Part shown: positions 2,961 to 33,600 of the stretch, piece after piece
Layout: each line of letters begins with the position of its first letter
How positions within the stretch are numbered: the first letter of the stretch is position 1
NCBI GenBank assembly: GCA_950295325.1
Contig: OX485804.1
Span: 3,534,001-3,598,000 of the forward strand
Source of the DNA: Polytrichum commune
Taxonomy: Eukaryota; Streptophyta; Polytrichopsida; Polytrichales; Polytrichaceae
Reading direction: 5' to 3'
Length of the DNA: 64,000 nucleotides
Position numbers and translations under genes: made by a program
Notes under the pieces: generated by a model
The model's database searches: none
Seen by the model: only the letters and a program-made list of their open reading frames with translations
What the model was told of the DNA's origin: nothing

Positions 2961-3517
2961 GCAACCCTCGCTAGCTCCCCTTAACTAATTTGGTCAATTT
3001 TATTTCTAGCAATGGTCACGAACGCTAATCCTTCACATTCCGCCATGCTAATGGTTAGCTCCCCATACCGCAGACCTTAGTTCATAGGAGGGAAACTAAC
3101 CATCTTACTTTGCTCTTGGGACTCACCCCTTAATCGGTAACCAATTCTTAGATGTGGACTTTCATCCATGGAAGTCTAATCTTATGTTGATCATTGCGTT
3201 GCCGGAGCAACATTACAACAACCCGAATCATACTAGACAACTATGCCCTCACATTGGGCCAAAGCCCATGAAGGCTGTGCCGTTTGGCCTCGGGTGGGTT
3301 TGACCATACCACCTCACCCATACAAGCCTCTAGGATTTTTAGTAGGGCCCCTACCCCACCGTCAATAAACCTTTTGTCTCTCTACCAAGAGTTGGGCCAA
3401 ATAAACATTCTACTTTAGCCGTTGGGCCTATAAGTCCCCAACAGCTTCAAAATACCATAAGTTCCTTGTATGATATATGATACTAACAAACGACCATTCC
3501 ATCGTCATCTACGCTTT
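2961..3517 (+). repeat. Dispersed repeat R, copy R1
   Basis: About 555 bp beginning CCCTCGCTAGCTCC and ending near CATCTACGCTT. It matches 17888-18432 (R2) along its whole length and 18903-19038 (R3) over its first 135 bp, all in the same orientation. No coding capacity was seen. Unlike R2 and R3, R1 is not preceded by the short tandem units found at 17.6-18.9 kb. It is probably part of an unclassified mobile element. Confidence 0.8.
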
Positions 3518-4179: not shown

Positions 4180-5608
4180 ATGCTTTCCTTGGTTTGCCTT
4201 TTATTGTTTTTCTTCTCTTCATTGGTTGACACAAACAATATGGGATAACTTGTATCCCTCTTCGGACTAGAATGATAGCCTTATTCTAACCTTATTCTTT
4301 CTCATGTATCTTCATTTGTATAATTGTTTACTATGAATAATTTGATGTTCTATCTTCTACATGATTGTGCAAGATTAATTTTGGAATAATGTTTTGAAAA
4401 GTGGATTTTGATTTATCATATGATTTGTGATTTTCCATTGAACTCATGACTAGTAATCTCCCAATTGATGAACACACTTTTCTTAACGGAATCACTATTC
4501 ATGAAAATCTCTCTCTCTCTCTCTCCAAAATAGAGTTGTTGGCATTTGGGCTACTTTTATCCGTTCACACAAAAAATCCAAAATACCTAAATGTTAATTA
4601 TCAAAGGATTAAATTGAAATATTTCATAAGAAATGCAAATTGTAGTATCAATTTTGATATTTAACTCACCAAGATGATTAGATATGTTGAATAAGAAGAT
4701 AAAACCACAACATCATCTTTGATGAACATCACGATAGGTTTTTGAAGTTTAGAAACAAGTTTTTAATGTTGTTCACACTTTATACATATGATCATAGTCC
4801 CACGTATGTACTATTTGAAAACATGATGGCTTAAGTCTTCATAACATGAATGCCATATCTTCAAAATATCTAGGCAAGCTAATGTCATCTACATTCTATG
4901 AAGTTTCTCTAATATTTTTGCTTACATGAAGCTCATGACTAGGCTTATATAGAAGGTCCAACCATACAAATGTGCTCTTCAACTTTACGTCAGATTTTGC
5001 TTATGATTATGTCAGAAAGCAAGCTTCCAAATCTCACTTGATCACAAAAATTACACAAAACCCTAGGGATGATCAGGCCTAAACCATTTCTAAGAAGCAT
5101 TATTTGGGAGCATTAAATTTTAAATTATAAACACTTTTAGGAATAGGACTCTAAAAACATCTTCAAACATTTTCTTTGTCAATTGAAACTAAACACCTAG
5201 GGAGTTGGACAATGATCCAATATTTTAATATTAACAATAATAAAACATTTAAAAGTGCTTCTAAACGATTCTAAAAATAGCATATGAAAGTGCAAACTTT
5301 CCGAATTCCAACACAAAGTAAACCAATAGATTCCTCCCAAACTGCCCCCTTTTGTGAAAGAAGCAACTTTCTCCTCCTTTGTGAAAGCACAAATCATAAA
5401 TCATCAATCCATTTGGAAGGATTACAAGTGATATAGAAACACCTGTTCTAAAAGGGAGAGCTGCCAGCGCGTGATTGACAATCCCTCCAGTAATGCTACC
5501 AGTTTTTCTTTATGTTATTCCTGTGTCGACAGAATCATTGATGTCTGATATTACCAGCTGCCCTGTTGCCAGCCTCCGCTTTTGCTGTCCGGTTTGGGAA
5601 TGCTGCAA
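4180..5608. other. Intergenic, no gene seen
   Basis: AT-rich DNA between the direct repeat and the 3' end of the polyketide synthase gene. It contains a CT dinucleotide run near 4508-4526. I found no convincing coding region. The 3' UTR of the minus-strand gene should lie in the last few hundred bases before 5608. Confidence 0.5.
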
Positions 5609-7564
5609 TCAGGCGGCGGTGGGTGGGAGGGGGACGCTCCGGAGCAGCAACACCTCCAGAGTGAGGCCAGGCCCGAAGCCGATCAGGAATCCGTAGTCGC
5701 TGCCCTCGCTGGTGGTGGAGGCGCCCATCTGGAGCGACCGATGTCTGATTCGGTCCAACACGAACATGACGGTGGAGCTGGACATGATGCCATATTCCGA
5801 CAGCACGTCGCGGCTCCCTTGCAGCTTGTCGTTGGCGAGCTTGAGCTTGGCCTCCACCTGGTCCAAGATGGCCGGGCCTCCCGGATGCGCGGCCCAGAAC
5901 ATGTCGTTCCATTGGGGGGAGGCGGCCGCCTTCCTGGCCTCGTTCAGGAATTTCTCGATGTTCTTGGAGATGAGGCCGGGGACATCCTTCATGAGATGGT
6001 AGATGAGGCCCGCCTCCGTGAGGCGGCCGTGGATTGCTCCCTCGCTCTCCGGCAGGATGGTCTCCCCGGCCCAGTGAATCTCGAACAATGGCTTCTCCGA
6101 CTCGGGCTTGGGGTCCGATCCCACGACGTAGACGGCCGCACCGTCGCCGAGCAGGGCAGAGCCGACCAGCCCGTCCAGGTGGTTCTCGTCGGGCGCGCGG
6201 TACGTGACCGCGGTGACCTCGCTGCACACCGCCAGCACGCGCGCGCCCTTGTTGTCCTCGGCGAGGTCCTTGACCACCCGCAGCACGGACGCCCCTCCGA
6301 AGCATCCCGTCTGGTACATCATGACTCGCTTCACCGTGGGCTTCAGCCCCAGGAGCTTGGCCAAGGCGTGGTCCGCCCCGGGCATGTTCACTCCGCTGGT
6401 GGTGGCGAACAGGATGTGCGTGATCTCGGACTTGGGGCGCCCCCACTCCTTGATGGCCTTCACGGCGGCTTCCGCGGCCAATTTCGGTACTTGGACGACG
6501 ACGATGTCGTGGCGCACGTTGAGAGAAGGCTCCATGTAGGTGCAGATGCCCGGGTTGGCCTTGAGCACTTCCTCCGTCAAGAACATGTGACGCTTCCGGA
6601 TGCCCGACTTGTCACCTGCATGCCGCCGCAAGATCACACGTGAGTTCCAACGCAGGAGGCCTGCTCACACCGACCCCGGAACCGAGGTCATTCATCCGTC
6701 GCGCGAAACGGGCATAGAATGCAACACGGTTGAGCTGTATAAACGGCTCGAACCGAATGCGATATTGAGGTGCAAGAACTGCAACTGGGTTCCAGGCTCA
6801 TGAATTATCACCTAAGCATCTAGGGTCTCTCGAAATCTGTATCCCACATGATTGAACGGGAAATGGCAATCAAGTAAGAAGAATCGTAGAAACGAGGTGC
6901 CCAGTTTCTGTACTCGAGGCTGCTGGAATTGGTAACGAAAACGAAATTTCGCGCTATATTAATTGTGACGATTACCCACAATGCTCACCACAATGTCGGG
7001 GTTGAATCTCGAGTTCAGGTTTTCCACCTGATTACGCAATGCGTAAATACCAGAAATACCTCATAAACTTCCGATGGAGAACAGCGTACAACGGTCATGA
7101 ATGAGTATTTGACCATTCGATTAATGGCACGCAATTATTGTGTATAGCCTGGGGGTTGGAGCTCATATACATCACTTTCATAGACCAATGTGAGTTGGAG
7201 ATCATATACATCACTTTCATAGACCAATGTGAGTTGGAGATCATATACATCAATCTCATAGACCAATGTGAGTCGTTCACTCATGTATGAGTGTACATCG
7301 GAAATGAGCATCGAGAGATCAGATTAACCACTTACAGATGCGCTTGAATTTGACCTTGAGATTCTCCTTATCGCCGCAGTTGGTGATGTTGAAGAAGAGA
7401 TCTGGGTACTCGCTCTGCAGAAACTCCGCAGGCGGCACTGCAGTGCCGACGCCCAACACTGACGCTGGCCCCTCAGCTCTCGGCTGACCCCGTGGCATCG
7501 GCACCGCGGGAATCATGGCAACCTGCTTCGATCCGTTCAGCTCCTCGCTGGCGGGAGGTGCCAT
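5609..7564 (-). CDS. CHS: Type III polyketide synthase (chalcone synthase family), copy A; catalytic Asn replaced
   Basis: Exons are 7564-7336 and 6615-5609, giving 411 aa. The 720-bp intron splits a Cys codon (residue 77, the conserved CHS intron site). The family condenses a CoA starter with malonyl-CoA units in the cytosol, for example p-coumaroyl-CoA to naringenin chalcone. The nucleophile Cys181 (alfalfa Cys164, in YQTGCFGG) and His320 (His303, in [10 protein letters not shown]) are present, as are the equivalents of Thr197, Gly256 and Ser338. Asn336 is Ile353 ([10 protein letters not shown], codon 5786-5788 ATC), and both gatekeepers differ: Phe215 is Leu232 and Phe265 is Tyr282. Asn336 is required for malonyl-CoA decarboxylation, so normal activity is unlikely. 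The N-terminus is about 17 residues longer than alfalfa CHS. The start is the ATG conserved in copy B. The family call is firm; true chalcone synthase function is doubtful. Confidence 0.92.
7179..7277. repeat. 39-bp tandem repeat in the copy A intron
   Basis: Three units starting CATAGACCAATGTGAG lie at 7179, 7218 and 7257. The intron of copy B has only two units (about 21100-21170). This accounts for most of the 34-bp difference in intron length (720 versus 686 bp), with a few other small indels. One unit gained or lost since duplication is the simplest reading. Confidence 0.9.
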
Positions 7565-9750
7565 GATGCCGTTACAAGGTACCCTGTTACTGATTAGTCG
7601 CCTCTTGCAATGTAAGATAATTCACAACCTGCCGGGAGGAAGTGTCTGTGGAGGAAACAGAGAATTGAGGATAAAAGAAGTGATGACAATTCAGGGTCAA
7701 GAGTTAAAGGAATTGAGTAAAGAAACTGCACAAGTTTAGAATCTGCAATAATAGTGATAAGGAATTTGAGTCTTCAAGTACGGTGCTACTGAGACTGAAG
7801 GATGTGATGAATGGAGCATAATAGAGCAATTCCTCTTATGCACACAGGACCTACACAGCTTGCATCTGTTGTAACCATGAAGCTAGAAGTTGGTGTTTTT
7901 AGTCAAGCTCTCAGGCCTCCACACCGATGTTTGACGAAGTTGACAAAGTCTCTTCGGCCATATGCAGCACGTGACCGCTATTGATGGACGTAAAGCATTA
8001 TTCATTTTTCCCTGTACGTATCCTGGTACATGAAATTTCTTTTCCTTGAGTGGAAAAAGTGTCGTGTGCTTTTGCACGAGCTCTAAATTGAAACGAATTC
8101 ACCGAAGATGAAAAAATTCAGTGAGGGATGTGTGGCCCTATTGTGTGCAATCCCAACTCGTAAGGCAACTTTGGCTGGTGGGTCGCATTGGGGAATGTGT
8201 CATTCAGTTAGCAATTGCTAATTACAAAAATTTGTCATTTCAAAATTTCAGAAGTGGAGTTAAGATGCAAAGGTTCTAACTTTGAAGTGAAAGTGAAGAT
8301 TCTGTCTCTTTAAACAATCACAAAACCCTCCCCATTATCATAAGGATTAAATTTAGAATGTTTAATGTTCCCTAAACACATAGACTGTCCAACTATCTTA
8401 CTGTAACATGTTTTTTCCTTACGTCCATTTAAAACCACTCAAAAATATATGTGTCCAATCAAAACAAGTGACCATGTAGACCTGAGGCCCACGTACATTA
8501 GATCCACATTGTTGCCAAATGGTTGTGTAATAATATATTAGAGAGTTGTTTTAATAGAGGACTTCAAAATAGAAGATACATTGAAAATGCTTGTATATTC
8601 TACTATAATATTAAAATTTCTATTAAAACATCTTATTATAATTATTAATCAGATGAATAAAATTTCCAAGGTTAGGACTAGGATCCCATTATATAAAAAA
8701 ATATTTTATACAACTTAAACCATTATATTTAATATTATAACTTGTCTATTTATATAAATTTTGGTACCATTGGATTCTTCTTGACTTTCTCTTTATCAAC
8801 ATATAAAAATTGCTCAACTCATACTCATATTGATCCCTTTATGAAGTGATCTAAAAATTAATACTTTGTATTATAATCCCAGTTGTTACCACCCTGAAAT
8901 CAATGAATATGCATACTTATCTTACCCCATTTGCTGCTTAACATGGAGTGGGTTCTTACTAATCATCTTGTGTTCCTCGTTTACCTCAACCTCCTTAGGA
9001 ATATTCAAATTCAACTTAAAGTTTGTTTATTTGACAAATTGATGAATGAAATTCAAACCTAATTCAAACCCAATTCAAGAAGCTACTACATCCATTTTCC
9101 TTATAAAGTGTGTATTTTTGTGACTATCTTCAAGAAATTTGGAAATCACTAAATATTCTTATATTCTTAAAATCATGTACTAGAATATATGATTTATCTA
9201 CAATTTCACAAATTAGATCTTTCAATTGGTGACTCACTAGGGTAAGCGGGCTAAAATTGGTTACTTACCTTATCAGACTCCTATAAATGAGCGGTATGTG
9301 GTTAGGTCTGGATATAAGAACAGACATGAGGAAGATATGTGTTGAAAAAAGAATTGGACTACATGTTCAAAATTTGTTAACCATTCTAAGTTTCATAGTT
9401 AGCATAATTGGGAGGGAGGGGGGCCGGGGACGACCACATATTTTTCAATAAGAAAGCTTTAGAATCTTCAATTTGATAATGATTAAGATATTCATATGAG
9501 TTTTGAAAAACATTTATGGCCGTGATTTGGATTTGGTAATCATCACACACTAAAGGAAGCTAAGATATGAGCGATGAGCAGTGAGCATTGAGTGGTGAGT
9601 GGTAACACATGAGCAGTGAGCACACATGAGCAGTGAGCGGTAACATGTGAGTGATGATGACATATTTAGTAATTATGCATGATTTTAGGGTCCATGATCT
9701 AAATTTGGTAATATTTTTATTGCAAATTTTAATTGTAAAATTCTAATATT
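7565..9750. other. Intergenic upstream of copy A, no gene seen
   Basis: The first few hundred bases must hold the promoter and 5' UTR of copy A but share no visible similarity with the copy B promoter. From about 8200 the DNA is strongly AT-rich. A minisatellite-like run of GAGCAGTGAG variants lies at about 9570-9660. Confidence 0.5.
7968..7973. promoter_or_regulatory. G-box upstream of copy A
   Basis: CACGTG lies 404 bp upstream of the copy A start codon. G-boxes bind bZIP/bHLH factors and are classic light and stress elements of CHS promoters. A single six-base site can occur by chance, and I saw no TATA box close to this gene. A further CACGTG lies inside the intron of both copies (6637-6642 in copy A). 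Confidence 0.3.
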
Positions 9751-9910
9751 TTGAATGAACAACATTGAAGGGAGGCCTATTACCATGGATACTTTAAAAA
9801 ACTATCAGTCCATTATTGATTCTTATTATAACATTCCACACCAATACATGTCACTTATTGATATTTTCAAGCATGCGGTTGAGCACAACACTTGGAACAT
9901 TACTCACACT

Positions 9911-12900
9911 TTACAACACCGGCAAGTTCAAGTAGTCGTATGACCTCGTTGTAGGCATACGTTGGAACATGTATAAACTTATCATTGTCGTAATCCACCT
10001 TGCATAGAATTCTAAACACATAATAAAGATGTTTGCAGTGCACCTATTTCCCTTTCTTTCCCAAAGCATGAGATGACATTTTTGTGAAGTCCGGGCATGT
10101 GTATTGCGGGATGTCGCCAATTATGATACGGTATGAAATATCCTCCTTCAAGTTGGAGATGATGTTGATTATCACTCCAAATTCCGGATATGGAATGGCA
10201 GTCACTCCAACAACATAGTAACTGTCCATGAGTCCGGCGCTCTCCCATTTGTTTTTGTGATCTGCTGTGGGTGTTGTTGGATTGCGACGCACTATCTTCG
10301 AGAATCTAGTAGTTGGGTGGGTGTCCAAGTTTGGGGACACACAAAAATGTGACCGAGGGATTGGGAGTGTCAGAATTGTTGAAAGCATGTGACGTGGAGA
10401 AAGGGATTCCCTTTGCTGCAATTGGAACCTAGCATCTTCAAGCGCCAACACCTCATTCCTTGCGAGATTGGTACCTATCTTCACCGGCCATGTGTTGGGG
10501 ACTATAGGCCAGTCCATAACGTTTTATTTTTTATTTTTTATTTTACCACTCACACAACGTTTAATGTCGTTGGGGCAAAACCAAAACTCGTGCTCCGCAT
10601 TGTTGGTGGAATGAAACTCCTTCTTCAGCCTTTTGTAAGTTGGAGCAGGAGTGCCATGTTTTCCTATGTTGATTTTTGCATTGCAAAAAGAACATGTATT
10701 GGCTTGCATTGCCCAACATCTTTTGGCCGAGCTTGGGGGCAATCTAGCAATGTGGCACTAAGAAGCAAGGCAATTAGTCTCTAACATGGATGTGGTATGA
10801 GCCACACCATGCTCTCTAGAATCAAGGAATCCTCTATGCATGTTCTTTTAGCTGGACGAGTGTTAGGGCAAGGAATAGAATAGTTAATTTTATCGGGTCA
10901 ATGTGAGTCACAATCGGCTTCGGGTGGCAAGTCAAGCTTCTGTTTGGTGGACCTAAACAACTTCAAGCCTTCCAAAGCACAATCCCTAGTGTTAAGATCT
11001 TCTATCTCCGGATAAGACTTCATGGCATCTGCTAGCAGTTTGGAATCTTCACATTTGCCAACAACCTTCAATTTCAAGGATGCTGAATGAGGGCCTTTAC
11101 CAATGGAACCCCATTTCAATCATGATCTATAATTTGCAATATGCATGAATGCACAAATCAAACCGTCCACTGTTGCTTCGTAGAGTCAAGTTATCTTGTT
11201 GCCGGACTATTGGAGCCACTTGTTGTGCACCGTCTCTGCAAGGTTACATGTTAGCGTTTCCGCATGTTCATCTATTGTTATATCCAGCGAACACCACAAT
11301 TATAAATTATAATAGATTATATATATTTCTTAGATGTTCAAAATAAAATAACACTCAAGAGTATAATTTAGCAATGCACTTACAATAAGCATATGACCAC
11401 CCCATGGCTTGTAACGGAAGTGCCAAAATGCCAACCACTCAAAAAGATCGAAAATACCTTCTTCTGTGGCAGCTCCGGACGACAACCACCGTGAACAAAA
11501 CACATGATATTTAGTCTCAACTTCGTTCATTGTCTTCGCGGCCTTCTAATCCTTGCATACTTACTTATACTGAAATTGTAAGGATGGTTTAATATACTTC
11601 TGCGTCACCTTATTCAAATTTGCAGACCAATAGGAAAGACATGTGCGCTCACGATTAACCATGGGTAGACGTGGGTCACCGTCCCCATAGACTTTCTCAC
11701 TGCACTCCAATTAATTTAAGCATTGTCTGCCACGTAACCCTTGAAGTTTACATTTGGCACTCCATTCTCCGCCTAGACAGAATTCAAGTTTATCCATAAG
11801 ATTGTTTGTGTTCTACCATCTTCTGATTGCATGTCACAACATGTAATCGTCAACATCTTACAATATTTGCTATCATACACATGGCACGCCATACACATGG
11901 CACGCCAAGGTGGTCCAATCCTTCAAACGTTTGATATAGTCAAACATTATTTATGAATTCTCCATGTCCCCTCCGACTTGCATATGCTTTACAAGGTCCA
12001 CACCACTCCTTGGAAGATCTGCTAATATCTTGAAAACAAACACTTTGTCTTTGGATTACCTTGGGAACTTACTACCATGGAATGTATTTGAAACCTGAAT
12101 GGTCTTTGAGTGCCATTATACTATCCATCGTACTCATTCCACTATGAATAAAACGCTTCGAACCTGACACAAAATTACGACAATTTGAAGAGGCAAGAGT
12201 ACTAAATTTATCCATAACCACCTTTAATGATGAAACTACCAAGTGATGACCGTATGATGGAGATTTAAGAAAGTTGTCTGCCAAGAATTGTTTGTTCATT
12301 GCTATTACTATAGTAGAGTTCTTAGCAGTGGGTGTTTTCATGACCTCTTGAGCAATGCACTTGTAAGTCATGTCCAATTACTCACGACACGCCCTTTGTA
12401 TGTGGAGTGAACGTATATTATGCAAGTATGACACAATGCAATGTACACAGATGGCGACCGGAATACCTTACACTCTATTGTTGATTTTCAGGGACCATAA
12501 TTCTCACATAGAATGAAATAGAAGTTGATCCCATCTATTCGCTGTTGTTGCAAACCCCTCCATTGCGATACATTTAATCACAATAATCATTTGGACACTA
12601 GAGATGATTAGCACAAGAAGGACGTCTGAATGATAATCAAAAATCGTTTTGGATATTAGTTGTTTTTGTTGTGCACCAAGGATGTCCGTCACACATCTTG
12701 TCAATGTCATCCATAAAACGGCCATACGCCCTTGGAACTCCCATTGCCATAGGGGGCAACACAAAAAACGTCACCATTAAAAGATGGTGACAAGTACTTG
12801 ACATTACGAACATCAATGTTATCAAAGTCAATAGTTGTAAGATCAAATTTAGATTTTTCCTTAGATTTTGTTAGTTTCAATACCTCGACAATATTCAAAC

Positions 12901-13650
12901 TTGAAGATGATATATAAGGGTGCAAAGATGGACGTTGAGATGGAGTTCCATGGCGAACCAACCTCATATAAAGTGGACTAGAAGGGGTTTTATTAATATC
13001 CACTGAGACTTTGGAAGGAGTTGGAGTTATATTTCTAATAGGAAAAGATGACGTGTTAGAAAGAACAACTGCCAGACAAAATTCGTTATTAGAATCAAAC
13101 AATACAAAAAATTATCTTCAATAGGTTCTAATTTAACAATGCCGACTCTTGGAATTTGGACCGTCGATGTGACTAACTTGTTCGTTAAAATGACAATAGA
13201 AGTTTGCAATTGGAAATCAAAAAGTCCTATAATTCTAAATGTTCCCAGACCCAAAATCCATACATGACCATCCTCACTCCGGTTCTTTTGCATCAATATT
13301 GTTTCTGATATATTACCATCCACAATGTACATCTCTTGCTCCATGTACATGGTTCCTATCTGGAGATTGAACTTCAAACCAAGTAAATCCTCTGAGACAC
13401 TCACATGATCATCATCCTCAAGAGGCAAAGTAAAGGGCACAAATGATCCACGAGCGTAGATAGTAGCCATAATTAAAGAAGGAATGAGATGCACGTCACA
13501 ATGTGGACAAATGCACTTATTTGTACTAAATGTCATATAGTGAAATACATATTTAATTGGGAACCTAGCCACCTCCTCTGACACATGGCACATGGGTAGG
13601 TTAAAATGACAGTTCTTATAGTCATAAAATATTCTAGAGGGGATGAACAT
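9911..13650 (-). pseudogene. Decayed coding block with a SWIM-like zinc finger end
   Basis: A series of minus-strand ORF pieces lies in consistent order: 13650-13027 (207 aa, with CICPHC), 13102-12707, 12377-12072, 11530-11330, 11119-10898, 10742-10524 (CSFC) and 10517-9911. The last piece reads YTCPDF, then CKHLYYV after about 20 residues. That resembles a SWIM zinc finger (CxC...CxH), but the first Cys is Tyr and a TAG at 10044-10046 stands where Trp would be expected before VHCKH. SWIM fingers close many MULE-type transposases and related plant proteins. I see no catalytic transposase core, so this may be a dead mobile element or a broken lineage-specific gene. Exon boundaries were not resolved. 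Confidence 0.5.
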
Positions 13651-14217
13651 AGAAATTGGCAGGCCCTAAATCACCAAAACCCTAAACTCATAAGACACAA
13701 ATTCAAATAAATGAAATACAATAAATCGTGTGCTTCATTTTGGGAAATGATGATATTTAATAACAATGTCCAAAGTAACAAAAATTGAGAGCACATCATG
13801 TGAACGAACAACATCAAAAAAAAAAAAAAAATCTTATTTTTGGTTCTGTACCAAGAAACAACTAAGGAAGTCGAGGATGGGCAAGCGTCTATCACGAGAA
13901 GGGGAAGGCAATGTCGTAGACAGAACAAGGACTTTACCATTTGAAGGAGGGTTAACATTGTGCACTGAACAAGCGGACCGGGAAAAACTCCATATTTTTG
14001 CAGACATGGTCATCGATTCAAATTCCAACTCCAATAATGAGACACATGTTCACAACTTGTTACTTTGCTTGTAATCGGTCTTTAGAAGACGCATCGGTCA
14101 TCGGTACTTTGCTTGTAATCGTAGCGTATAGCTAGAAGTTCTAGTTGAATGTCTCATGGTTGATGAAGAGTCATATAGGACCTTCAAAGTTGGCAAAAAT
14201 TATATCTTTAATTTTCC

Positions 14218-14312
14218 TAAACCCCTAGCTAAACCCCAACTAGCACAACCAACCCACCTAATTAACCTTACACCCTAACCCCTAGCTAACACCCGGCTAA
14301 ACCCTAACTAGG
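14218..14312. repeat. Degenerate CCCTAA-like stretch
   Basis: Repeated variants of CTAACCC and CTAAACCC resemble the plant telomere repeat (CCCTAAA). No two perfect units are adjacent. It could be an old interstitial telomere patch or a coincidence. Confidence 0.35.
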
Positions 14313-14458
14313 AGTGAGTTCGGAGCACAAATATTGGAGGTCGGAGGTTGGAAGGAGGACAACGAGTTTTTGTGGGCTGCAACATCAAGATGCAAGCTAC
14401 GAGCCAGCAACCATGAGCCTATAGATGCAAATGGAGAACTTCGAGCCCTGGATATAAT

Positions 14459-14701
14459 ATGGAAGGACAACAACAGAAGGTAGGCGCGATGGCGCGAGGA
14501 AGGGGACGTGGGAAGGGAGGCAAGCGAGGGGGGAGAACCAAAGAGCAAAAAGTAGAGGCAACAAGCCAAGAGCTTGAAGAACGGACCCAAAATCCCAAAT
14601 CGCAAACTCAATCTGAAGAGGGGAGGAACGATGAGAGAGGAGCCAAAAGTGAAGAACTTCGAGTGAGCAACCCAATGTCTTCACCAAATCTAGTGACCAA
14701 G
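14459..14701 (+). CDS. Possible first exon of a basic RG-rich protein
   Basis: An ATG opens 81 codons ending at a good donor (AAG|GTATGT at 14701). The peptide has a very basic RGRGRGKGGKRGGR stretch followed by a hydrophilic E/K/Q-rich tail. The local GC content is clearly above the flanks. I found no downstream exon with confidence, and the following DNA is TG/CA microsatellite and low-complexity sequence. It could equally be an orphan open stretch or the remnant of a gene. Confidence 0.22.
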
Positions 14702-17550
14702 GTATGTTTATGTTTGTGTGTGTCTGTGTCTGTGAGATAGAAAGATTGTGTGCATATGTGTGTATACATGTGCGCATGTGTGATTGAAGTTAGATTCAAC
14801 ATTAAACCTCACACACACACACACACTCACATCCATACAACTTTGAACATGTGTATGCATATTTTGGAAGTCTCAAATGTGGGCGTGTATGAATCTCAAT
14901 GTTCATTTTTGAGATCTTGGAATTCAACTTTGATAAATGCTTTCAATTTGGGCTTCCTTTTTTGAAATGTGTGTGTAAGGGTTTGTGGGATTGTGGAAAA
15001 TTTATGGGGGTGGGGGGGGGGGATAGAAATCTTATTTCAAAGTGACCTCTTGGATCCCCTCTACAAGTATTTATATTCAACAACACATGTGCCCTCAATT
15101 TTCTATAGTCAAATGTATGTTGATGTGACAAAATATCGGATATTTTTGAAATTTTCTCAAAATTCATTGGAATTATCTGTAAACATTTCTAGAAAGGGGA
15201 TGGATGTTGAATTTCAAGGTGTCATTTTGGATGTACCCCCAAGACAAATCAACAAAGAAATGATTCAAAACAAAATTAAAAAAAATTCACAAATTTGTCC
15301 TCGCACATGAATGGTGAGCTCAATAGCTTTAGATTTTGTGTTTTTTTTTTTGGAATTTTCTTAGAATAGTTTGTGAAAATTTCTAGACAAGGGGGATAGT
15401 TTTTTTTAAGTGCCATCTTGGATCCGAGATACCACTTAAAAAAAACAATGATCCCCCCCCCCTCCCGGAAAGTTTCATAGCTGATTCCAAAAAATTCAAA
15501 AAACTTCCAAAAAATTCTCTCAAATTCAAAACAAAATATTCACACAAAAATTCAATAGTCTTAGATTTTTTTCTTTTTTTTTGAAAATTTTAAATTTTTT
15601 TTGTAAAACTTTACGGCAAGTAGATGGTTTTAAGAAAAAATTGTCGTATCTTGGATCCGAAATGCCACTTTCAAAAGAATAAATGATCCCTTTTTTTTTC
15701 TTAAAAAAAAACTAACGTCTCGGATCCAAGATGCCACTTTCAAAAGAATAAATGACATCCCTTGCCCGGAAAGTTTCATAAATAATTTGGAAAAATTCCA
15801 CAAAATTCACAAATTTGTCTGTACATGTCAGTTCAATAATTTTGGATTTTTTTGGAATTGTTTACAACATGTCTAATAACAATAATATCTTGTAAGCATT
15901 ATAGTTGTCCACGCTAAAATGTACATCTTGAGAGTGCCCTCAGAAGTATGTCAACCACAAAACACGATCATGACCGCATGGATTTTCCTTCATGTCAACT
16001 TTGACAATATACATTTTATTGCCGAGCTGCTCTCTTTCCACCACCTTTGTTTGCTACTATTTAGACACCTTTCGTCTTCGATTCTATTGATAAAATATAT
16101 GGCTCCGCAGCAATACATCCTTCTCCGCATTGCATTTGGAAACAATTGACCTTGCTGTCCACTTTGTCTACGTAAAAGGGCTCATTTTGCAATTAAAAGC
16201 TCCACCTCTAGCTCTGGTATTTGCACGTGCAAGGGCTTCGTCTCACCCTCGCCTAGATCATTGTCGGCTTCAGTTCTAAGGTCGTTAATATTTGAAGACG
16301 GATTCATTAGCTCGCCCATGTCAACATCCTTCTCTAAGTAGTCATAGTTGGATCCGTCATCGTGCCATGACTCCTCCAACATTCTAATCAACTTCTAGGA
16401 TTCTATTATATTCAGTGTTTGGAGAAAAGATTTGGGGACCTTAAACCATGAAGGGATTGCCGATACTGTCTATGGTCACTGGTCATCTTCTTACCTCTCA
16501 TATTTGAGGCTTTAATGTTTGGTGTTTTTCTTCCATACATGGGTGTCTCACAAGTGAGTACACAACCACCAATGATGACTAACTAAATGACAAGCCATAG
16601 TATTGTTTTTTCTAGACTAATGACTATAATTAGTAATAGCCATGACTTAGATGACTAGTTTTGTTTCGTATACAAATAACTAGTCTTAGTCTTATTGTTT
16701 AAATTAGTGACTAGTTTTAGTCATATTCTTTAAGGGTTTAAGATTTAGGGTTTAGGGTAACGCACCTTTGCTGCGAGTCATAGACTTCGTAGTGATGTAC
16801 ACTGTTGCAACTCTTGCTATCCCACCTTAACTTATTTTCGCCATTTCGCAACTCTGGCATGTGTTATGAGCACTAGCCTTGTAATCACACACATCTCCAT
16901 GAGGAATGCCTTCAACACCATGAACACAAGGGGGACCCCGGAGTGACACCCGAGACATGTGGTGCCTAGGTGAGAGGGCCTAAGTGGTTCTAGTATGGGT
17001 CAGGGCCCCGGGCGTTGAAAACATCTTCCACCTACAAGGACTAGGAGTCACGGGGATAAGGCCGTAAGCATTGGATAGCTTATGGCGTCCGAATTCTAGA
17101 ATGCTTAAGAACTCTCCAATCAGAGGTGTGAACTAGAAAATATAGCAATTTAAGTGGTGTGTTGCCTAGGGACAACACCCAACACTCCAGAGGGCGTTGT
17201 GATGAGACAACAATGACCTGGTAATGGTACCCAAGACTGCCGAGGTTTGGACAATCATAACTCCCTCAATACTTGCCCAAATGAGCCAAGTGAGGAGTCT
17301 ATCGTCATTTGCACATAAATTATTTTTGATGGAGTGGCCGATTGTCATATTCAAAGGCCAAACAAAGGAGTTATGAAAGTTTGAAGCTGATGAGGGACTG
17401 CACCTCCAATGGCTAAGGAAAAACGACTATCTGGTCCAACTATTAGGAGAGAAACAAAATGCTACTTGGTAGTAGAATAAGGGCCTTACCCAAAGGATTA
17501 GCACTTGTGACACTTGTTAGAATTGAGAACCGGTAAAAATAAATTAAGGA
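14702..17550. other. Low-complexity and degenerate repeats, no gene
   Basis: This holds TG and CA microsatellites (14705-14825), poly-G and poly-C runs, and several degenerate direct copies around CTTGGATCCGAGATGCCACTT at about 15415, 15650 and 15720. Two TTTAGGG units sit at about 16747-16760. A minus-strand acidic ORF (16391-16182, 69 aa) has no family I recognise. Confidence 0.4.
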
Positions 17551-17559
17551 GTGCTAGCA

Positions 17560-19038
17560 AGGGTTGCGACACCTGCACAATTCATACATGCGCATGGAAG
17601 CAAACTTCTAACATTTCGTCCGTGAAACAGACATGATTTTGCTTCATCCGCAATGCCAACTTTTATCATTCCGTGTGCGGTACAAATATGAATTGGTTTG
17701 GTACCACAAAGGCAATTTCTAATATTTTGTCCGACGAAACGAACATGATTTGCCTTAGTAACATAAAGTCACATTTCAACGTTCCATCCGCGGCATAAGC
17801 ATGACTAGCTTTCATAGCACAAAGCCACCTTTCAACATTCCATCCGCGGCACAAGCATGACTAGCTTTCATAGCACAAAGCCACCTTTCAACCCTCGCTA
17901 GCTCCTTTTAACCATCTTAACGATTTTCATTTATAGCAGGGGTCACAAGCGCTAACCCTTCGCATTCTGCCATGCTAATGCTTAGCTCCTAATACCCCTT
18001 ATCTTAGAGTTGATAAGAAGGGAACCAACCTTCATACTTTGCTTTCGGGACTCATCCCTTAATCGGTATCCAATTCTTAGATGTGGACTTCCATTCATGA
18101 AAGTCCAATCTTATGTTGATTATCGCGTTGCCGGAGCAACACTACAACAACCCGAACCATACTACACAGCTATGCCCTCACATTAGGCCAATGCCCATCA
18201 AGGCCGTACCGTGCAGCCACACCACCTCACCCGTTTAAGCCTCTAGAACTTTTGGCAGGGCCCCTACACCATCGTCAAAAAAAATTTCTCACTCTACCAA
18301 GAGTTGGGACCAAGTAAACATTTTCCCTTAGCCACTGGGCCTAGAAACCCTCATAAGCTTTTGAACACCATAAGTTCTTTGTATGATGTCTGATGCTAAC
18401 AAGCGACCACTCCATTGTCATCTACGCTTCACGTAGATGTCGATGGAATCCTTCTTAACATTTTGTCTGTGACACAAATATGATTTGGTTTGGTACTACC
18501 AACCCAATTTCTAACATTTCATCCGCAGTATAAACATGATTTTGCTTAGTACCATAAAACCGACTTATAATATTCCGTCCGCGGCATAAACATAATTTTG
18601 CTTGGTACCACAAAGCCAACTTCTAATATTTTGTCCGCGAAACATACATGATTTTGCTTCATTTGCAAAACCAACTTTTATTATTCCGTGGGCGGTACAA
18701 ATATGAATTGGTTTGGTACCACAAAGATAATTTCTAATATTTTGTCCAACGGAAAGAACATGATTTGCCTTGGTAACACAAAGTCACCTTTCAATGTTCC
18801 ATCCTCGGCATGAGCATGACTAGCTTTCATAGCACAAAGCCACCTTTCAACATTCCCCCCGCGACACGAGCATGACTAGCTTTCGTAGCACAAAGCCACC
18901 TTTCAACCCTCGCTAGCTCCCCTTAACCATCTTAACAATTTCCATTTCTAGCAAGGGTTACGAGCGCTAACCCTTCGCATTCCGCCATGCTAATGGTTAG
19001 TTCTTAATACCCCGGACCTTAGTTGATAAGAGGGAAAC
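17560..19038 (+). repeat. Composite tandem repeat, period about 1015 bp
   Basis: Short units of about 55-60 bp (core ATTCCATCCGCGGCAxAAGC and GACTAGCTTTCATAGCACAA) run from 17560 to 17890 and again from 18455 to 18905. Each array is followed by repeat R: the complete R2 (17888-18432), then the first 135 bp of R3 (18903-19038). Matching bases at 17891 and 18906 give a period of 1015 bp. The array plus R together form the duplicated unit, so this looks like the start of a local satellite. The second unit is truncated at about 19038. Confidence 0.8.
17888..18432 (+). repeat. Dispersed repeat R, copy R2
   Basis: Full-length match to R1 (2961-3517) in the same orientation, with scattered substitutions and small indels. 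It contains the shared CGTTGCCGGAGCAACA block. Confidence 0.8.
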
Positions 19039-19436
19039 ACTGCCGTATTTTCCCTACCTTCGAAACCTCTCTTGCTTATTGCTAAACTAGTCTCCTAGTT
19101 TTGGTATTGCTCCCTCCACCACTGAAGTGGTTGAACTTCTCTTTGTTGCAGAGTTTTTCTTTTGTTTCATATACACTACAAATACCACTAGCCGTCATGA
19201 AGATGGCCTCTCCTGAAACCACATTTTTGTAGGACTTTAGTAACAAGCTGGGATAAATTAGCACTTGGGGGAGAGCTTTAAGCTCAACAATTCAATTGAA
19301 CCAAGATCAACCTCTTCATCTGCATAAAAGAGGGTCTAATTGAATTTAAGGTGACCCAACATACAGTGAGGAACTTGATGAGACAACGCCTCCTTGAATC
19401 CAACATATGAGCTAGTTGAGCTAGCTTTTTAGGTCA

Positions 19437-19577
19437 GCTAGCCCAACTATGGCTAGATCAAGGCGTGAAAAATATGGGCTAGCCCAACTATGGCTAGATC
19501 AAGGCCTGAAAATAATGAGCTAGCCTAGCTCTGGCTAAATCAAGGCCTAAAAAAACATGGGCTAGCCCAACTAGCTA
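19437..19577 (+). repeat. 41-bp tandem repeat
   Basis: Units start GCTAGCCCAACTATGGCTAG at 19437, 19478, 19519 (diverged) and 19561 (partial). The core is itself partly palindromic (GCTAGC and GGCTAGCC). Nothing coding overlaps it convincingly. Confidence 0.85.
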
Positions 19578-19599
19578 ATGGGCTATAAAAGGTTTGTTC

Positions 19600-20240
19600 A
19601 TAAAGCCCACATTGAATGCCTTGGCAGCCCAAATGTGTCCCTCCTACACCCAAAGTTTCCATAGCTTCATTTAACCCAAAATCAAGATCATCCGGTTGCC
19701 CACCCACCAAAGAACCTAACCAATTCTCATCATCTCCAAAGTTTTGTAGATCCATAATTGTATCATTCTCCCCACCACCCTCTTCATAATCTTCCCGATG
19801 TGCTCCATGTTGGGGTCTTGCACCAATGTCCTATACAAAGTGTTTCTCAACTTCTTGGATTGCCCGATCGTACAAAAACTTTGCACATGTATGCAACTTT
19901 GGGAGATTATCCATGTTCCAAGTATGAAATCATCAATTTCAATAATACAATGTTCCACTAATTCTCTATTGTCACGCATCCATGTTAACACTGCATAACT
20001 TAGTAATATCACATGTAATGTGGTTGCCACAAGTGTGATACTACGGAGTTTAGAGTGTATACTGGACGAATGATGGTTGGTTGCAAATGGATGAAAATAA
20101 ATCTCCAGTTTCAAGGTCCCATAGTCACCAGTTGAGGGAATACGAACTGTTGGGCCCACAAGCAACAGTGGATGTCACTCCAGCCCAGGAAGAATTCAAG
20201 TCAATTCACAACAAACGCCTTGAAAACCCTAAAGGTGAAG
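19600..20240. other. Unassigned, no gene recognised
   Basis: A 149-aa minus-strand ORF (20165-19716) and overlapping plus-strand ORFs of 66-67 aa are present. None shows a motif I recognise, and the frames compete with each other. Confidence 0.35.
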
Positions 20241-20376
20241 AAAGCCCTTGAGAGGCTGCGGTTTCATAAAGGTGGAGACCTTCTTCTTTAACACTCCCGG
20301 GCTCCCTTTCGGCGTAGTCAGACCTACTGTAGAAAGCTCTATTTCATCTTTACTACATAGTGCCGGAGTGGAGATT

Positions 20377-20520
20377 CCACGTGGGATTAGACGGGGTGCC
20401 ATCCACTGTGAGGTTGACGCGTGGATAAATCAATCATATTTTCCCTGGAATATAGTCTAGCCCTCCACGTGATCATCGATTGGTAAACCACGTGACCTGA
20501 CTATAGACTGGATGTATATA
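20377..20520 (+). promoter_or_regulatory. Promoter of polyketide synthase copy B: three G-boxes and a TATA box
   Basis: CACGTG occurs at 20378-20383 (within palindromic CCACGTGG), 20466-20471 and 20489-20494. TATATA follows at 20515-20520. Transcription would then start near 20545-20550, leaving a leader of about 250 bases before the ATG at 20802. G-box clusters near a TATA box are characteristic of light- and UV-responsive CHS promoters. The transcription start is inferred from spacing only. Confidence 0.65.
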
Positions 20521-20550
20521 GGAGCTGCGGACCTCACTTTTCCTCAACCC

Positions 20551-20689
20551 CAATTGTGCAACCATCTAGTGGACCTTGGAGTCGATCGATCTCCTCACAG
20601 TTCATAGAATTCGCAATTCTCCACAACCGCAATTGTGCAAAAACCTAGGCTGTTACACCTTGGAATCGACCGATCTCCTAACAGTTCAT
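20551..20689 (+). repeat. Imperfect leader duplication
   Basis: Two segments (20551-20605 and 20630-20689) share CAATTGTGCAA, then CCTTGGAxTCGAxCGATCTCCT and ACAGTTCAT. They lie in the presumed 5' leader of copy B. The copy A upstream region shows no such pair. Confidence 0.75.
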
Positions 20690-20801
20690 TTACTTCTGTA
20701 GTACTACCTTCTGCTAAGTAATTTGTTCACAAATTTTTGCTGTACGATCCATTGAGGTTGTGATCAACTTGGCTTCATATTTTCCCAATTCTACTAGACA
20801 T

Positions 20802-23057
20802 ATGGCACCTCCCGCCAGCGAGGAGCTGAACGGATCGAAGCAGATTGCCATGATTCCCGCGGTGCCGATGCCACGGGGTCAGCCGAGAGCTGAGGGGCCA
20901 GCGTCAGTGTTGGGCGTCGGCACTGCAGTGCCGCCTGCGGAGTTTCTGCAGAGCGAGTACCCAGATTTCTTCTTCAACATCACCACCTGCGGCGACGAGG
21001 AGAATCTCTAGGTCAAATTCAAGCGCATCTGTAAGTGGTTAATCCGATCTCTCGATGCTCATTTCCGATGTACACTCCTACATGAGTGAACGACTCACAT
21101 TGGTCTATGAGAGTGATGTATATGATCTCCAACTCACATTGGTCTATGAAAGTGATGTATATGATCTCCAATCCCCAGGCTATACACAATAATTGCGTGC
21201 CATTAATCGAATGGTCAAATACTCATTCATGACCGTTGTACGCTGTTCTCCATCGGAAGTTTATGAGGTATTTCTGGTATTTACGCATTGCGTAATCAGG
21301 TGGAAAACCTGAACTCGAGATTCAACCCAGACCATTGTGGTGAGCATTGTGGGTAATCGTCACAATATAGCGCGACATTTCGTTTTCGTTACCAATTCCA
21401 GCAGCCTCGAGTACAGAAACTTGGCACCTCGTTTCTACGATTCTTCTTACTTGATTGCCATTTCCCGTTCAATCATGTGGGATACAGATTTCGAGAGACC
21501 CTAGATGCTTAGGTGATAATTCATGAGCCTGGAACCCAGTTGCAGTTCTTGCACCTCCACGCGACCGTATCGTATTCGGTTCGAGCCGTTTATACAGCTG
21601 AACCGTGTTGCATTCCATGCCCGTTTCGCGCGATGGATGAATGACCTCGGTTCCGGGATCGGTGTGAGCAGGCCTCCTGCGTTGGAACTCACGTGTGATC
21701 TTGCGGCGGCATGCAGGTGACAAGTCGGGCATCCGGAAGCGTCACATGTTCTTGACGGAGGAAGTGCTCAAGGCCAACCCGGGCATCTGCACCTACATGG
21801 AGCCTTCTCTCAACGTGCGCCACGACATCGTCGTCGTCCAAGTCCCGAAATTGGCAGCGGAAGCCGCCGTGAAGGCCATCAAGGAGTGGGGGCGCCCCAA
21901 GTCCGAGATCACGCACATCGTGTTCGCCACCACCAGCGGAGTGAACATGCCCGGGGCGGACCACGCCTTGGCCAAGCTCCTGGGGCTGAAGCCCACGGTG
22001 AAGCGAGTCATGATGTACCAGACGGGATGCTTCGGAGGGGCGTCCGTGCTGCGGGTGGCCAAGGACCTCGCCGATGTTAGATGATGAATGAATTCTGTTA
22101 CGTTCATTAGTCATTCTAACGGATGAAACTTACTCAGAATATTCTAGAGTAGCTAGTTCTAGAAACTTCGTTTCCCAATATGATCTAGTTAGCAGTAGTT
22201 TTCATTTGTCTTTGCAGGTAGAGCATCAGGAGTTAAATAAGCTTGTAGATGTCTGCTAGGCAGCTTAGATCATACATCAGGCACAAGGATGATTCACTGT
22301 AATGTTCTGTAGGATGTATTAGGATACAGGAGGAATAAAAAATTTCTTTACACCAGAAGTGTTTCAGCACAGATACTTGTGCATTCATATTGTATTTCTA
22401 TCAGCCGAGAACAACAAGGGCGCGCGCGTGCTGGCGGTGTACAGCGAGGTCACCGCGGTCACGTACCGCGCGCCCGACGAGAACCACCTGGACGGGCTGG
22501 TCGGCTCTGCCCTGCTCGGCGACGGTGCGGCCGTCTACGTCGTGGGGTCGGACCCCAAGCCCGAGTCGGAGAAGCCATTGTTCGAGATTCACTGGGCCGG
22601 GGAGACCATCCTGCCGGAGAGCGACGGAGCAATCCACGGCCGCCTCACGGAGGCGGGCCTCATCTACCACCTCGTGAAGGATGTCCCCGGCCTCATCTCC
22701 AAGAACATCGAGAAATTCCTGAACGAGGCCAGGAAGGCGGCGGCCTCCCCGCAATGGAACGACATGTTCTGGGCCGTGCATCCGGGAGGCCCGGCCATCT
22801 TGGACCAGGTGGAGGCCAAGCTCAAGCTCACCAACGACAAGCTGCAAGGGAGCCGCGACGTGCTGTCGGAGTATGGCAACATGTCCGCCTCCACCGTCAT
22901 GTTCGTGTTGGATCGAATCAGACATCGGTCGCTCCAGATGGGCGCCTCCACCACCAGCGAGGGCAGCGACTACGGATTCCTGATCGGCTTCGGGCCTGGC
23001 CTCACTCTGGAGGTGTTGCTGCTCCGGAGCGTCCCCCTCCCACCCACCGCCGCCTGA
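20802..23057 (+). pseudogene. CHS: Type III polyketide synthase (CHS family), copy B; nonsense codon plus solo-LTR insertion
   Basis: Exon 1 is 20802-21030, the intron 21031-21716 and exon 2 21717-23057. Without the 334 bp of insertion and target duplication, the exons have exactly the lengths of copy A (229 and 1007 bp). Two lesions disable it. TAG at 21009-21011 replaces the AAG (Lys) of copy A, ending translation after 69 codons. A 329-bp LTR-like insertion (22075-22403) interrupts exon 2, and removing it as a GT-AG intron (22076-22404) would leave a 5-bp frameshift. Catalytic Cys, His and Asn336 ([10 protein letters not shown]) are all encoded, and Phe215-to-Leu and Phe265-to-Tyr are shared with copy A. 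Cys190 of alfalfa CHS is Tyr here (AVYSEV). It has a well-formed promoter, so it may still be transcribed. Confidence 0.95.
22075..22403. mobile_element. Solo LTR inserted in CHS copy B exon 2
   Basis: The insertion begins TGTTAG and ends CTATCA, the TG...CA ends of LTR elements. It is flanked by the 5-bp direct repeat GCCGA (22070-22074 and 22404-22408), which occurs once in the uninterrupted copy A. It is 329 bp long, has no ORF, and carries an AATAAA signal at 22334-22339. These are the marks of one LTR left after recombination between the two LTRs of an inserted retrotransposon. Confidence 0.9.
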
Positions 23058-23059
23058 TT

Positions 23060-23895
23060 GCAGCGTTATTATAACAGCTTTTCACATAAATTCATGGACA
23101 TTATATCAAATTTGATAATCATCAAACTTCTTCGTGACGTGAAACTCAGTCAGGAGAATGAATACCCAGTCCTTACGTGGTCGTGTAGCCAGCGTCCAAT
23201 TCGAACATCAACTAAATAGGTGTCCCGATTCTTCATGCGCAGTCTCAAAGAAATTAAGTTAGTAGAACATCTAAGCGGCAAGATTTGGGAAAGTGAACTA
23301 CCTGTGTGCAAATATTGACAAATTGAGATTATCATAATTGAATCATAACTTCAATTCAGTACACCGGTATCTCAGAATGTATTTTGTCTGTGCATGCATG
23401 GCAGCCCTTTAGCAAGGGGCGCTAAACTATATTTTGTATTAGGCAAATAGAAGTATTTTGTAAGCCCTAGTTGGCAAGGGCCCCATGCTTTATTATTTTA
23501 CCGCTTTAGTAAATAAGCACCGTAACACAGATTAGGGCTTGGATGAAGCTCGTAAGGAGGGAGGATAGTCTTTCTGTGGGCAAGTGATTTTGCTGTTAAG
23601 GCCGCTCAACAGTGAACTGCAGCATGTATATACCCATAGATCATAGTGTTCTGTGGCTCAAACTGAATCATTTTTAGGTTTCCCATGGTGAGCATCCTGA
23701 TGCTTCCAACATATTGTAAACATATACAAAAGATGAGCATATATGTAATTGTTCGTAGGAATTTCAGTGCATAAGATTACATGGTTATACAATCAAGACA
23801 ACATTTAATGTGTGCAGCGTATAGAAAGCATAGGCGAAGTTGGAAAGCCACCTCTTTTGAGGAGGTCATTTTCATTCCGCCCTATGTGAGGATAG
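23060..23895. other. Intergenic, 3' of copy B, no gene seen
   Basis: Similarity to copy A stops within about 10 bases after the stop codon. The stretch is AT-rich, with no coding region I can support. Confidence 0.45.
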
Positions 23896-30600: not shown

Positions 30601-33600
30601 CTTCTTGCTTTGCAGCTCTTATGGAGTAAGAGCGCAAAAACATGAATCAGGTGGCTGAAGTGACACAAGAGAGTATTAGGTGCTACATTCTTGCAAGAAT
30701 CGGGTTCAACAGGAGCTGCAACTGCATGCTTTAGCAAGAACTCACCTGTTAACATCATATATATGAACTAGTCGATCTCGGCCCCCTGAAGCCAAAAGTG
30801 AAACAATTAAGGAATCTGTATCAACCAAATTATCTTCTGCCACGACCACTGATGTAAAATGCAATGAGAGAATTTCCGCATCGTGTGCTTCCTGCCCACA
30901 TCACCACAAAAGGCATTTTAGATCAGTGCTATATATTATACTTCGGTTTATGTTGTAGACAGGCATTGAAAATGTGATTTTGAAGATGCAAGATGCATTC
31001 CTTACATATGTAGAGCACAAGAAAAGTGGGGGCCTGGCAAGTGAAGAACCAAAGCCTCTCCAAGCTAAAGATCAGTAATCTGAACCTGGAAGCTATGAAG
31101 AAGCAGACTTTCTAGGTCATAAATACGAAGGTTCCCACTGCTGTCACCAGATGCCAAATGGTTTCCATCGGGGCTGATGCAGATGGATCGGAATCCAACC
31201 CTAGTATCAGCAATTTCTTCATTTGTTTTCAAAGCCGAGAGTCTTTCTTTTTGCTCTCCCACACAATCTGCAGGAAACATATCTGGAGTCTCTCAGGATG
31301 ATTTATAGACCAAATACAAAGAAGGCAAAAGAGTTTGTTATTTTTACGACATCTCATACTTCATATATTTCATCCTAAACAACTCCTTTCCCAAGTCTTG
31401 CAATTTGGAGGTCAGAACTTTGTCAGGGTGTCTATATAATTCCAAAGTGATATGCCAGAAGGTCATAACTCTTGTGAAGATCCAGGAGATGTCTAGGATA
31501 GCGCAACAGAAAAGCGGCTCTGCAACAATGCATGGGACTTCTGGGATAAGGGTGAGAGACCAAACCTATGTAAAGCACCCCCAATATATCATTGTTGTAT
31601 ACATTAACTGGCCGGTCGTTTTTTGTTGACAAGGTGGGGACAGTCAAAACACGGGACTCCATGTTGAGACCCAGATCAAGGTGCCACAACCGGATAGTTC
31701 CATCTGCAGAACAGGTTGCAAAGCTGCCTTCTGGTAAGGAACTTTTCTTGTTTGATGCTTGAGAAGGTTCAGGCATAATTGCTACATCCCATATGCATGA
31801 ATTGTGAAAAAGGAATGTGCATTTTCTTTCAATCTGCAGGAGACAAAGTACAGTGTGGAAGTTATAAGAGGTGATTTAGTGGGCTTGTTAAGAGGTGAGA
31901 GGTCTCCAGAATACATATATGCAATAAGACTCTTGATAATTATCACATGTGATTGACATTTTGCCTTTCAGCATCATAGATCTAACTTAAAAAATGAGCA
32001 GTAGACCAACAATTAGAAAGAAAATGAAAGAGATGGGTGATCAGAAAGAGACCTTGGAGTGGTTCCGAACATCCCATACATACAGGCTATGATCACTATA
32101 GATAACAGCTGCAATCCAGAATTGCCATGTTTTAGAGGCAGATATGAACACAACATGAGAAAACACACAAAATGTTCGCCAAGCAGTTCAATCATCAGAG
32201 ATCTTCAATATCTATTCCTAATAGTTTCATAACCGTATCTTTTCACTCCCAGCAGGGGAATGTGTCTTGCTTTCAATTATAAAAGGCTTTTCAACTTTAC
32301 CCTATGGGAGGCTGTCAATTATCACTTTTGTGTGTGTATAAAGACCAATGATGTCCACAGCACATGGATATGCTCCATTGATGTAAGGAAGAGAAACTAA
32401 CCAAGACTTCGGCCTTGTTGGAGAAAATTGCAGGCAATAGCATCCGGAAACTTCACGCCTGATGTTACACGATGACCAACTGCTAAGTAAGCACTGACAT
32501 TAGCATCAGTGAGGCCATGATAGCCATGTGGAGCAGGCCGAGGAAGCATGGCAATATACTCAAGGGTATCCTGCCTGAAGATGCGTACTATCCCATCACC
32601 ACAAGCACATACTACATGATCCTCTGAGACTGCTAATGCATAAGCTTGTCGAACCTGTTCATTGCATACAAATTATGTGTCAGTTAAAAGCAGGTAACAA
32701 TTGGAATGTAATTGATTTGGTAACCCTTTTCAATCGATAGGTATCCATTGTGAGCTAATTTAGTGCAAATAATTAAATGCATCCCAAACCAAACAAATAT
32801 CATCTGTTCCCAAGCCTCCAGCACCTGTTACAAAAGGATGGGCACTTTTGTGAACTTCAAAGAATCTCTTGTATGCCTTCCAATTTTTCAGAAACTGAAT
32901 TGTACCTCTAGGTCAACCCATTTTTTGATGGCCAGACCATGATGGAGAAGGCACAGAACGCCTGCAAGTGCATAAATGGTGTTCAGAAGAAGACATGACA
33001 AAACAGATAACATAGTAAAAATACAGCCTTGAAACACAACAGCAACAAGTTCAATTGAGAACCTCACGTTCCACGACTTCCTCCACGATTTCAGAACAGA
33101 TTTTCCAATATCAGTGCTAATCTTAAATTTTTCTCAACAGCCAGGACTCGAATGTTTTTACTTAAACAAGCAACAAAGAGGGGGAAGTAATTACCAACAG
33201 ATGTCAATGCATAAATTGGCTGATGCACTGGAACTCCAGTACTCTGTTCCTTTCTAATGGGTGTGGATGCTATACAAATGAATGAGCTGTCCTTCTGACT
33301 CCCCAGTTTGATAGGTTTTCCATCCATACCCGAATTGATATTCACTCCAGACAGTCTATCTCGCGGCCCACCAATTGTCCAATGCTTGAGATGTTTGGAG
33401 CCACCTGTCACAAAGAAAGTGCCTTCTGTGGAAAATTGAAGAGCAGTCGCTGATAATGGAGATGCTGCCGCCCGTGTCTTCATAAGTAATGATTTATTTT
33501 TCCAATCCCAAAGGCACATGTTACCATCATGAGGAGCGCCAAGGGATACTAAGTGCTTCCCTGTACATGAACCACCCAGTAACTATTACTTTGAGGTGGA

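Follow-up and report, generated by a model that had tools for sequence, protein, structure and literature searches.

An inverted pair of apparently decaying type III polyketide synthase genes in the moss Polytrichum commune, probably derived from a single copying of a coding unit

The two genes

The window analysed here is a stretch of 64,000 nucleotides of the moss Polytrichum commune (contig C2, positions 3534001-3598000), which was searched against the whole genome (408 Mb, 64 contigs); all coordinates below are those of the window. It contains two near-identical inverted arms (5599-7564 and 20802-23067), each carrying a predicted type III polyketide synthase gene (chalcone/stilbene synthase superfamily), here called copy A (minus strand) and copy B (plus strand). 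The two genes are divergent, heading away from each other, with their start codons 13.2 kb apart.

Copy A is composed of exon 1 (7564-7336, with the ATG at 7564-7562), an intron of 720 bp (7335-6616, GTAAGT...GCAG) and exon 2 (6615-5609, through the stop codon at 5611-5609), which contains the Pfam domains PF00195 and PF02797 (265.1 and 195.8 bits, with a cut-off of 27 each). Its frame of 411 codons has no internal stop, and its best matches among solved structures are three chalcone synthases (9kah, 9jl6 and 6dx7, the last being among the top three with an E value of 1.7e-228). Codon 353 (5788-5786) is ATC and codes for Ile at the position of Asn336, where copy B has AAC (Asn). A 39-bp unit in the intron (7150-7273) is present once more in copy A than in copy B, and a dispersed repeat of ~380 bp (7733-8111, no strand assigned) begins 169 bp upstream of the gene.

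Copy B is composed of exon 1 (20802-21030), an intron of 686 bp (21031-21716) and exon 2 (21717-23057), which includes an insertion of 329 bp (22075-22403). Its codon 70 is a nonsense codon (TAG, 21009-21011), where copy A and four related genes on contig C3, described below, have Lys. The insertion has TG...CA ends, a target site duplication of 5 bp (GCCGA, 22070-22074 on the left and 22404-22408 on the right), other copies in the genome and no internal region, all features of a solo long terminal repeat (LTR), which it probably is. A second copy on contig C3 shares 99% identity over 292 of the 323 query bases, and there are nine weaker genomic matches, including three same-strand pairs ~5.7 kb apart, the spacing expected of LTRs, which match over only 117-118 bp.

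The original prediction, which described an inverted pair of near-identical genes, copy A with an intact 411-residue frame and Ile at Asn336 and copy B retaining this Asn with a nonsense codon in exon 1 and an LTR in exon 2, is borne out by these data. The copies also represent distinct loci, each damaged by lesions of its own, and they are unlikely to be collapsed haplotypes of one gene because both lie on one contig and have unrelated flanks.

Catalytic residues and enzyme class

Residues are given in the numbering of alfalfa chalcone synthase; codon 353 of copy A corresponds to Asn336 by an offset of 17, set from Cys164 and His303. Copy A has Cys164, His303 and Ile336 in place of the Cys-His-Asn triad, and copy B encodes Cys, His and Asn in pieces, in a broken frame. 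Both copies have Leu215 and Tyr265 instead of the chalcone synthase gatekeepers Phe215 and Phe265, which are Phe and Phe in the four C3 relatives, and both contain ALLGDG. Since copy B shows Leu215 and Tyr265 too, these residues predate the split between A and B. Copy A has, in addition, Thr132, Ser133, Met137, Thr197, Gly256, Ser338 and Pro375. The ancestral enzyme would thus have been a triad-bearing, non-standard type III synthase and not a standard chalcone synthase, and the gatekeepers suggest that its product profile was unlike that of chalcone synthase.

The moss chalcone synthase PpCHS (PDB 6DX7), an enzyme of P. patens (PMC8580882), has the same family domains and is the top-three match of copy A mentioned above, but copies A and B have Leu and Tyr for its gatekeeper Phe, copy A lacks the catalytic Asn and copy B is interrupted. 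The tetrad of P. patens has been given as Cys170, Phe221, His309 and Asn342 (PMC3431822). The change of Phe215 to Leu is held responsible for the formation of diketides by benzalacetone synthase (PMC6274091, PMC5004622), and A and B share this Leu with the enzyme of Rheum palmatum. They differ from it in the additional Tyr265 and in Thr132 of copy A, a position occupied by Leu in the rhubarb enzyme (Leu125 there, placed at 132 by the seven-residue offset of Leu208/Phe215; PMC6274091). Because the alfalfa substitutions F215S, F215W and F215Y likewise impaired the enzyme (PMC6274091), Leu215 could indicate a weak activity and not a new one.

Divergence and constraint

Alignment of the two loci along exons and intron, which had been proposed together with the original prediction, gave 6 differences in 229 bases for exon 1, 13 in 677 aligned bases for the intron (with 52 gap columns) and 19 in 1007 bases for exon 2, so that the whole unit differs at 39 of 1923 aligned bases (~2%). 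Intron and exons have diverged equally (13/677 versus 25/1236), and the mismatches are evenly spread (P=0.58 for the longest identical run, P=0.27 for the variance of spacing). With ~1e-8 substitutions per site per year for mosses, the copies would, as a rough guess, have been separated for a time on the order of one million years.

It had been claimed that homogenisation keeps the arms alike, and that the lesions must be younger than this process or have escaped it. In favour of ongoing gene conversion, the intact relatives are strongly homogenised (see below), and concerted evolution by conversion has been suggested for moss tandem genes (PMC3045890). However, patchy tracts of identity of the kind expected from it were sought along the whole A/B unit and none was found, divergence being uniform, and replacements have accumulated on both branches, which makes this explanation improbable. 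The claim is therefore not supported: mismatches are even, the intron is as divergent as the exons and replacements are common, and no recent or escaped lesion has to be invoked, as one copying followed by near-neutral decay fits.

In total, 24 codons differ between the copies (14 by replacement, 9 silently and 1 by the stop). Polarisation by the four C3 relatives (codon 268 being put on A by its residue, with its base unpolarised) places 8 replacements and 5 silent changes on the A branch, and 5 replacements, 2 silent changes and the stop on the B branch, with 3 differences unpolarised; the change from Asn to Ile is assigned to the lineage of A and the stop codon to that of B. Compared with residues common to all four relatives, and besides the named lesions, seven other replacements are found in copy A and five in copy B. 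Each copy had been described as retaining what the other has lost, so that exchange between the arms might in principle regenerate a working frame. This idea is incomplete: as both copies carry these further replacements, swapping the lesions in question would not clearly bring back the ancestral gene.

Before the split the lineage was under strong constraint, with a ratio of replacement to silent substitution rates (omega) of about 0.05 (0.045-0.049 in exon 2 for A or B versus the C3 genes, with silent sites near saturation). Between A and B, omega reaches 0.455 for exon 2, and 0.95 for the 50 codons of exon 1 that can be compared. The ratio of replacements to silent changes between A and B (14:9) differs from that of the deeper comparison of A with the C3 gene L001 (58:184; Fisher P=0.0004) and does not differ from the neutral expectation (P=0.36), and the corresponding branch tests gave P=0.006 for A and P=0.012 for B. 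For exon 2 only, the A/B ratio (11:8) also differs from that of two intact pairs, L003/L004 (2:15, at twice the A/B silent divergence, dS, of exon 2) and L005/L006 (2:7, at equal exon 2 dS), both when these are pooled (4:22, P=0.004) and when L003/L004 is taken alone (P=0.006). Since divergence is uniform and equal in intron and exons, replacements outnumber silent changes and earlier constraint was strong, it seems that a single copying event was followed by near-neutral decay of both copies. We infer that they are pseudogenes, or are becoming so, and that both proteins are inactive.

The intact frame of copy A raises the alternative that it encodes a functional enzyme whose mechanism has changed, in which Ile336 on top of Leu215 and Tyr265 gives a new function. 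Besides the 411 open codons, the retention of Cys164 and His303 and an exon 2 omega below 1 are in its favour. On the other hand, each of the eight A-branch replacements leaves a residue common to B and the four C3 relatives, and tested substitutions of Asn336 in the alfalfa enzyme abolish malonyl-CoA decarboxylation (N336H, N336Q) or severely impair it (N336A, N336D, N336K) (PMC6274091); Ile is absent from the substitutions listed there. Moreover, the chance that no stop would arise in the ~13 neutral substitutions of the A branch is 0.65-0.71, and a frame that can survive so easily without selection does not count as evidence for function. A living copy A is, therefore, doubtful.

Relatives elsewhere in the genome

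A search for the family in the genome gave 34 exon-level matches, grouped into 16 loci. The original prediction had called for a search for a third, intact paralog; with the whole A unit as DNA query, no third close copy was detected, and of the 11 candidates that were scored, none besides A and B has this intron. The next-best relatives are the four genes of the C3 cluster (L001-L004, 8.88-8.89 Mb), with 79-80% DNA identity in exon 2, which are intact chalcone synthase genes, all of them with Asn336. Among these four, exon 2 dS is 0.066-0.17 and exon 1 dS is 0.59-2.2 (P<=1.4e-6 in 6 of 6 pairs), and BLAST between their introns gave no match, suggesting that homogenisation in this cluster is limited to exon 2. 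In exon 1, both A and B are separated from the C3 genes by a dS of 0.93-2.0, which is about equal to that of the C3 genes among themselves.

A comparable situation is found on contig C5. In the pair L005/L006, silent change in exon 2 (7/236) is lower than in exon 1 (6/42, P=0.006) and than in the intron (79/451, P=4e-9). For the two C5 pairs that include L007, the contrast between exons is not significant (P=0.61 and 0.27), and the introns (107/446 and 103/440) exceed exon 2 silent change (28/236 and 21/236) in raw counts. The start of homology between the C5 genes varies from ~95 bp before the start codon to 29 bp after it, and its end from 9 bp before the stop codon to ~110 bp after it, a less sharp cut than that of A and B. 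By these comparisons, homogenisation bounded by coding sequence does occur in this polyketide synthase family. Polyketide synthases of P. patens lying in small regions and 95-100% alike have been ascribed to tandem duplication (PMC5004622). Unlike such clustered synthases and the moss tandem genes, A and B look like the result of one event that spanned the coding unit; their flanks are unrelated, and both copies are decaying. In the literature covered (titles and openings of abstracts, with most subscription papers outside this scope) no moss chalcone synthase pseudogene or exon-limited conversion is described.

The arrangement of A and B resembles the I locus of soybean, an inverted pair of related chalcone synthase genes, and inverted chalcone synthase repeats have been described as a cause of silencing in that plant. 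By analogy, the pair could be a source of small RNAs that silence the pair itself or its relatives, as 1244 of the 1915 21-mers of A are common to B. However, the moss copies, which belong to a different plant, are divergent and 13.2 kb apart, so that a hairpin would need antisense read-through of A, and at most 11 21-mers are shared with any of 13 other loci examined. This role is, consequently, very improbable.

Two further observations concern the family. Each of the three clusters examined has a divergent inverted pair (A/B at ~13.2 kb, L001/L002 at ~2.2 kb and L006/L005 at ~7.9 kb), and the locus L010 (C4:32584027), a type III synthase match, has an internal TAA within the part that matches and is perhaps a pseudogene or contains an intron.

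Homology boundaries and flanking regions

Identity between A and B starts at the ATG in both genes, includes the intron and extends only 7-10 bases beyond the stop codon. Homology that is bounded by the coding unit and still includes the intron is unusual. Over 300 bp on each side, no similarity between the A and B flanks exceeded that of 200 shuffles; in the same test on six genes, the 5' flanks of L002/L003 exceeded all 200. Searches of the genome with 1.5-kb flanks (best 40 of 2240, 83, 397 and 981 candidates scored) were dominated by repeats and were redone with the parts near the genes. The 168 bp upstream of copy A and the 823 bp downstream of copy B matched only themselves, in a search that skips very common words, so that the absence of matches is not proof. 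The 741 bp upstream of copy B match 13 other places in the genome, all of them within 20317-20433 (<=117 bp, 73-83% identity), and the region downstream of copy A matches dispersed repeats, which start at 514 bp, and has a single further match at 148-348 bp (best 40 of 273 candidates). A promoter or empty site shared with another synthase was also sought, and among the matches listed none lies at another synthase locus.

Upstream of copy B there is a promoter-like stretch (20466-20520, plus strand) with two CACGTG motifs 23 bp apart (20466 and 20489) and a TATA box just downstream (TATATA at 20515). Two CACGTG within 30 bp appeared in 6 of 10000 resamples, and in none of 10000 together with a TATA box within 60 bp. 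A third CACGTG (20378) sits in the dispersed repeat fragment 20317-20433; all three within 117 bp were found in 0 of 10000 resamples, a count that includes the one belonging to the fragment. The 1 kb upstream of copy A contains one CACGTG and no TATAWA. Locus B may be the older one, as it keeps this promoter-like stretch, a weak inference.

Origin of the pair

These data probably reflect one event in which the complete coding unit was copied between loci whose flanks were unrelated beforehand, followed by decay. One type III polyketide synthase coding unit would have been copied once, from the ATG to just past the stop codon and with its intron, most likely by ectopic conversion or repair synthesis between two loci that already had unrelated flanks, so that the unit at one of them would have been overwritten and not inserted anew. 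After that, A would have gained Ile336 and its other replacements, and B the stop codon and the insertion.

In this leading account, the whole unit at one of two old loci was overwritten. Its main rival is the plain insertion of a gene body, captured by a mobile element or used as filler DNA at a break, which would have made either A or B. The abrupt ends on both sides and the unrelated flanks are as expected from such an insertion, but no further copy of the unit or of its intron was present among the 11 candidates scored, no repeat pair brackets either gene within 2000-30000, and it would have to be by chance that the ends lie so close to the start and stop codons. It is, thus, the less likely of the two, although a realistic possibility.

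Several points weigh against single copying by conversion with near-neutral decay. The contrast with L005/L006 alone, the one inverted and intact pair of equal exon 2 dS, is not significant (P=0.11), the neutrality test rests on just 24 codon differences, and copy A may be under weak constraint, its omega of 0.455 being below 1. The intact genes L001 and L003 also lack TATAWA, so that a missing motif does not show copy A to be silent, and the promoter argument for B is weakened because the first of its three CACGTG lies in a fragment with 13 genomic matches. In addition, the flank searches revealed neither an empty site nor a trace of a donor, so that conversion and insertion are not distinguished.

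The pair shows why neither function nor mutual repair should be deduced from an open frame and a close similarity of inverted copies: the intron, used as an internal clock, suggests that both copies drift. It also marks what is probably the disappearance, in one plant, of an unusual polyketide synthase. More speculatively, polyketide synthase genes of this genome could be overwritten by ectopic copying bounded by the coding unit, as in A and B, or by one exon, as in exon 2 of the C3 cluster, promoters remaining private while coding sequence is exchanged, and A and B could be the last remnants of a Leu215/Tyr265 enzyme that was spread in this way and then lost from the sequenced plant; we hold this broader idea only tentatively. 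If coding-unit-bounded copying is true, mosses would be a natural place to watch conversion exchange enzymes between promoters.

Other features of the window

A search of the window with Rfam gave no match at the gathering score. On the minus strand (31435-34793) there are WD40 exons resembling MABP1/WDR62, two of them identified by domain search (31435-31875 and 33094-33582) and one by eye (34455-34793). An RNase H domain on the plus strand (48100-48492) is likely a retroelement remnant. Between the two genes, direct repeats with a spacing of 1015 bp (17598-19038) are related to 2962-3283 and contain a 56-bp tandem unit.

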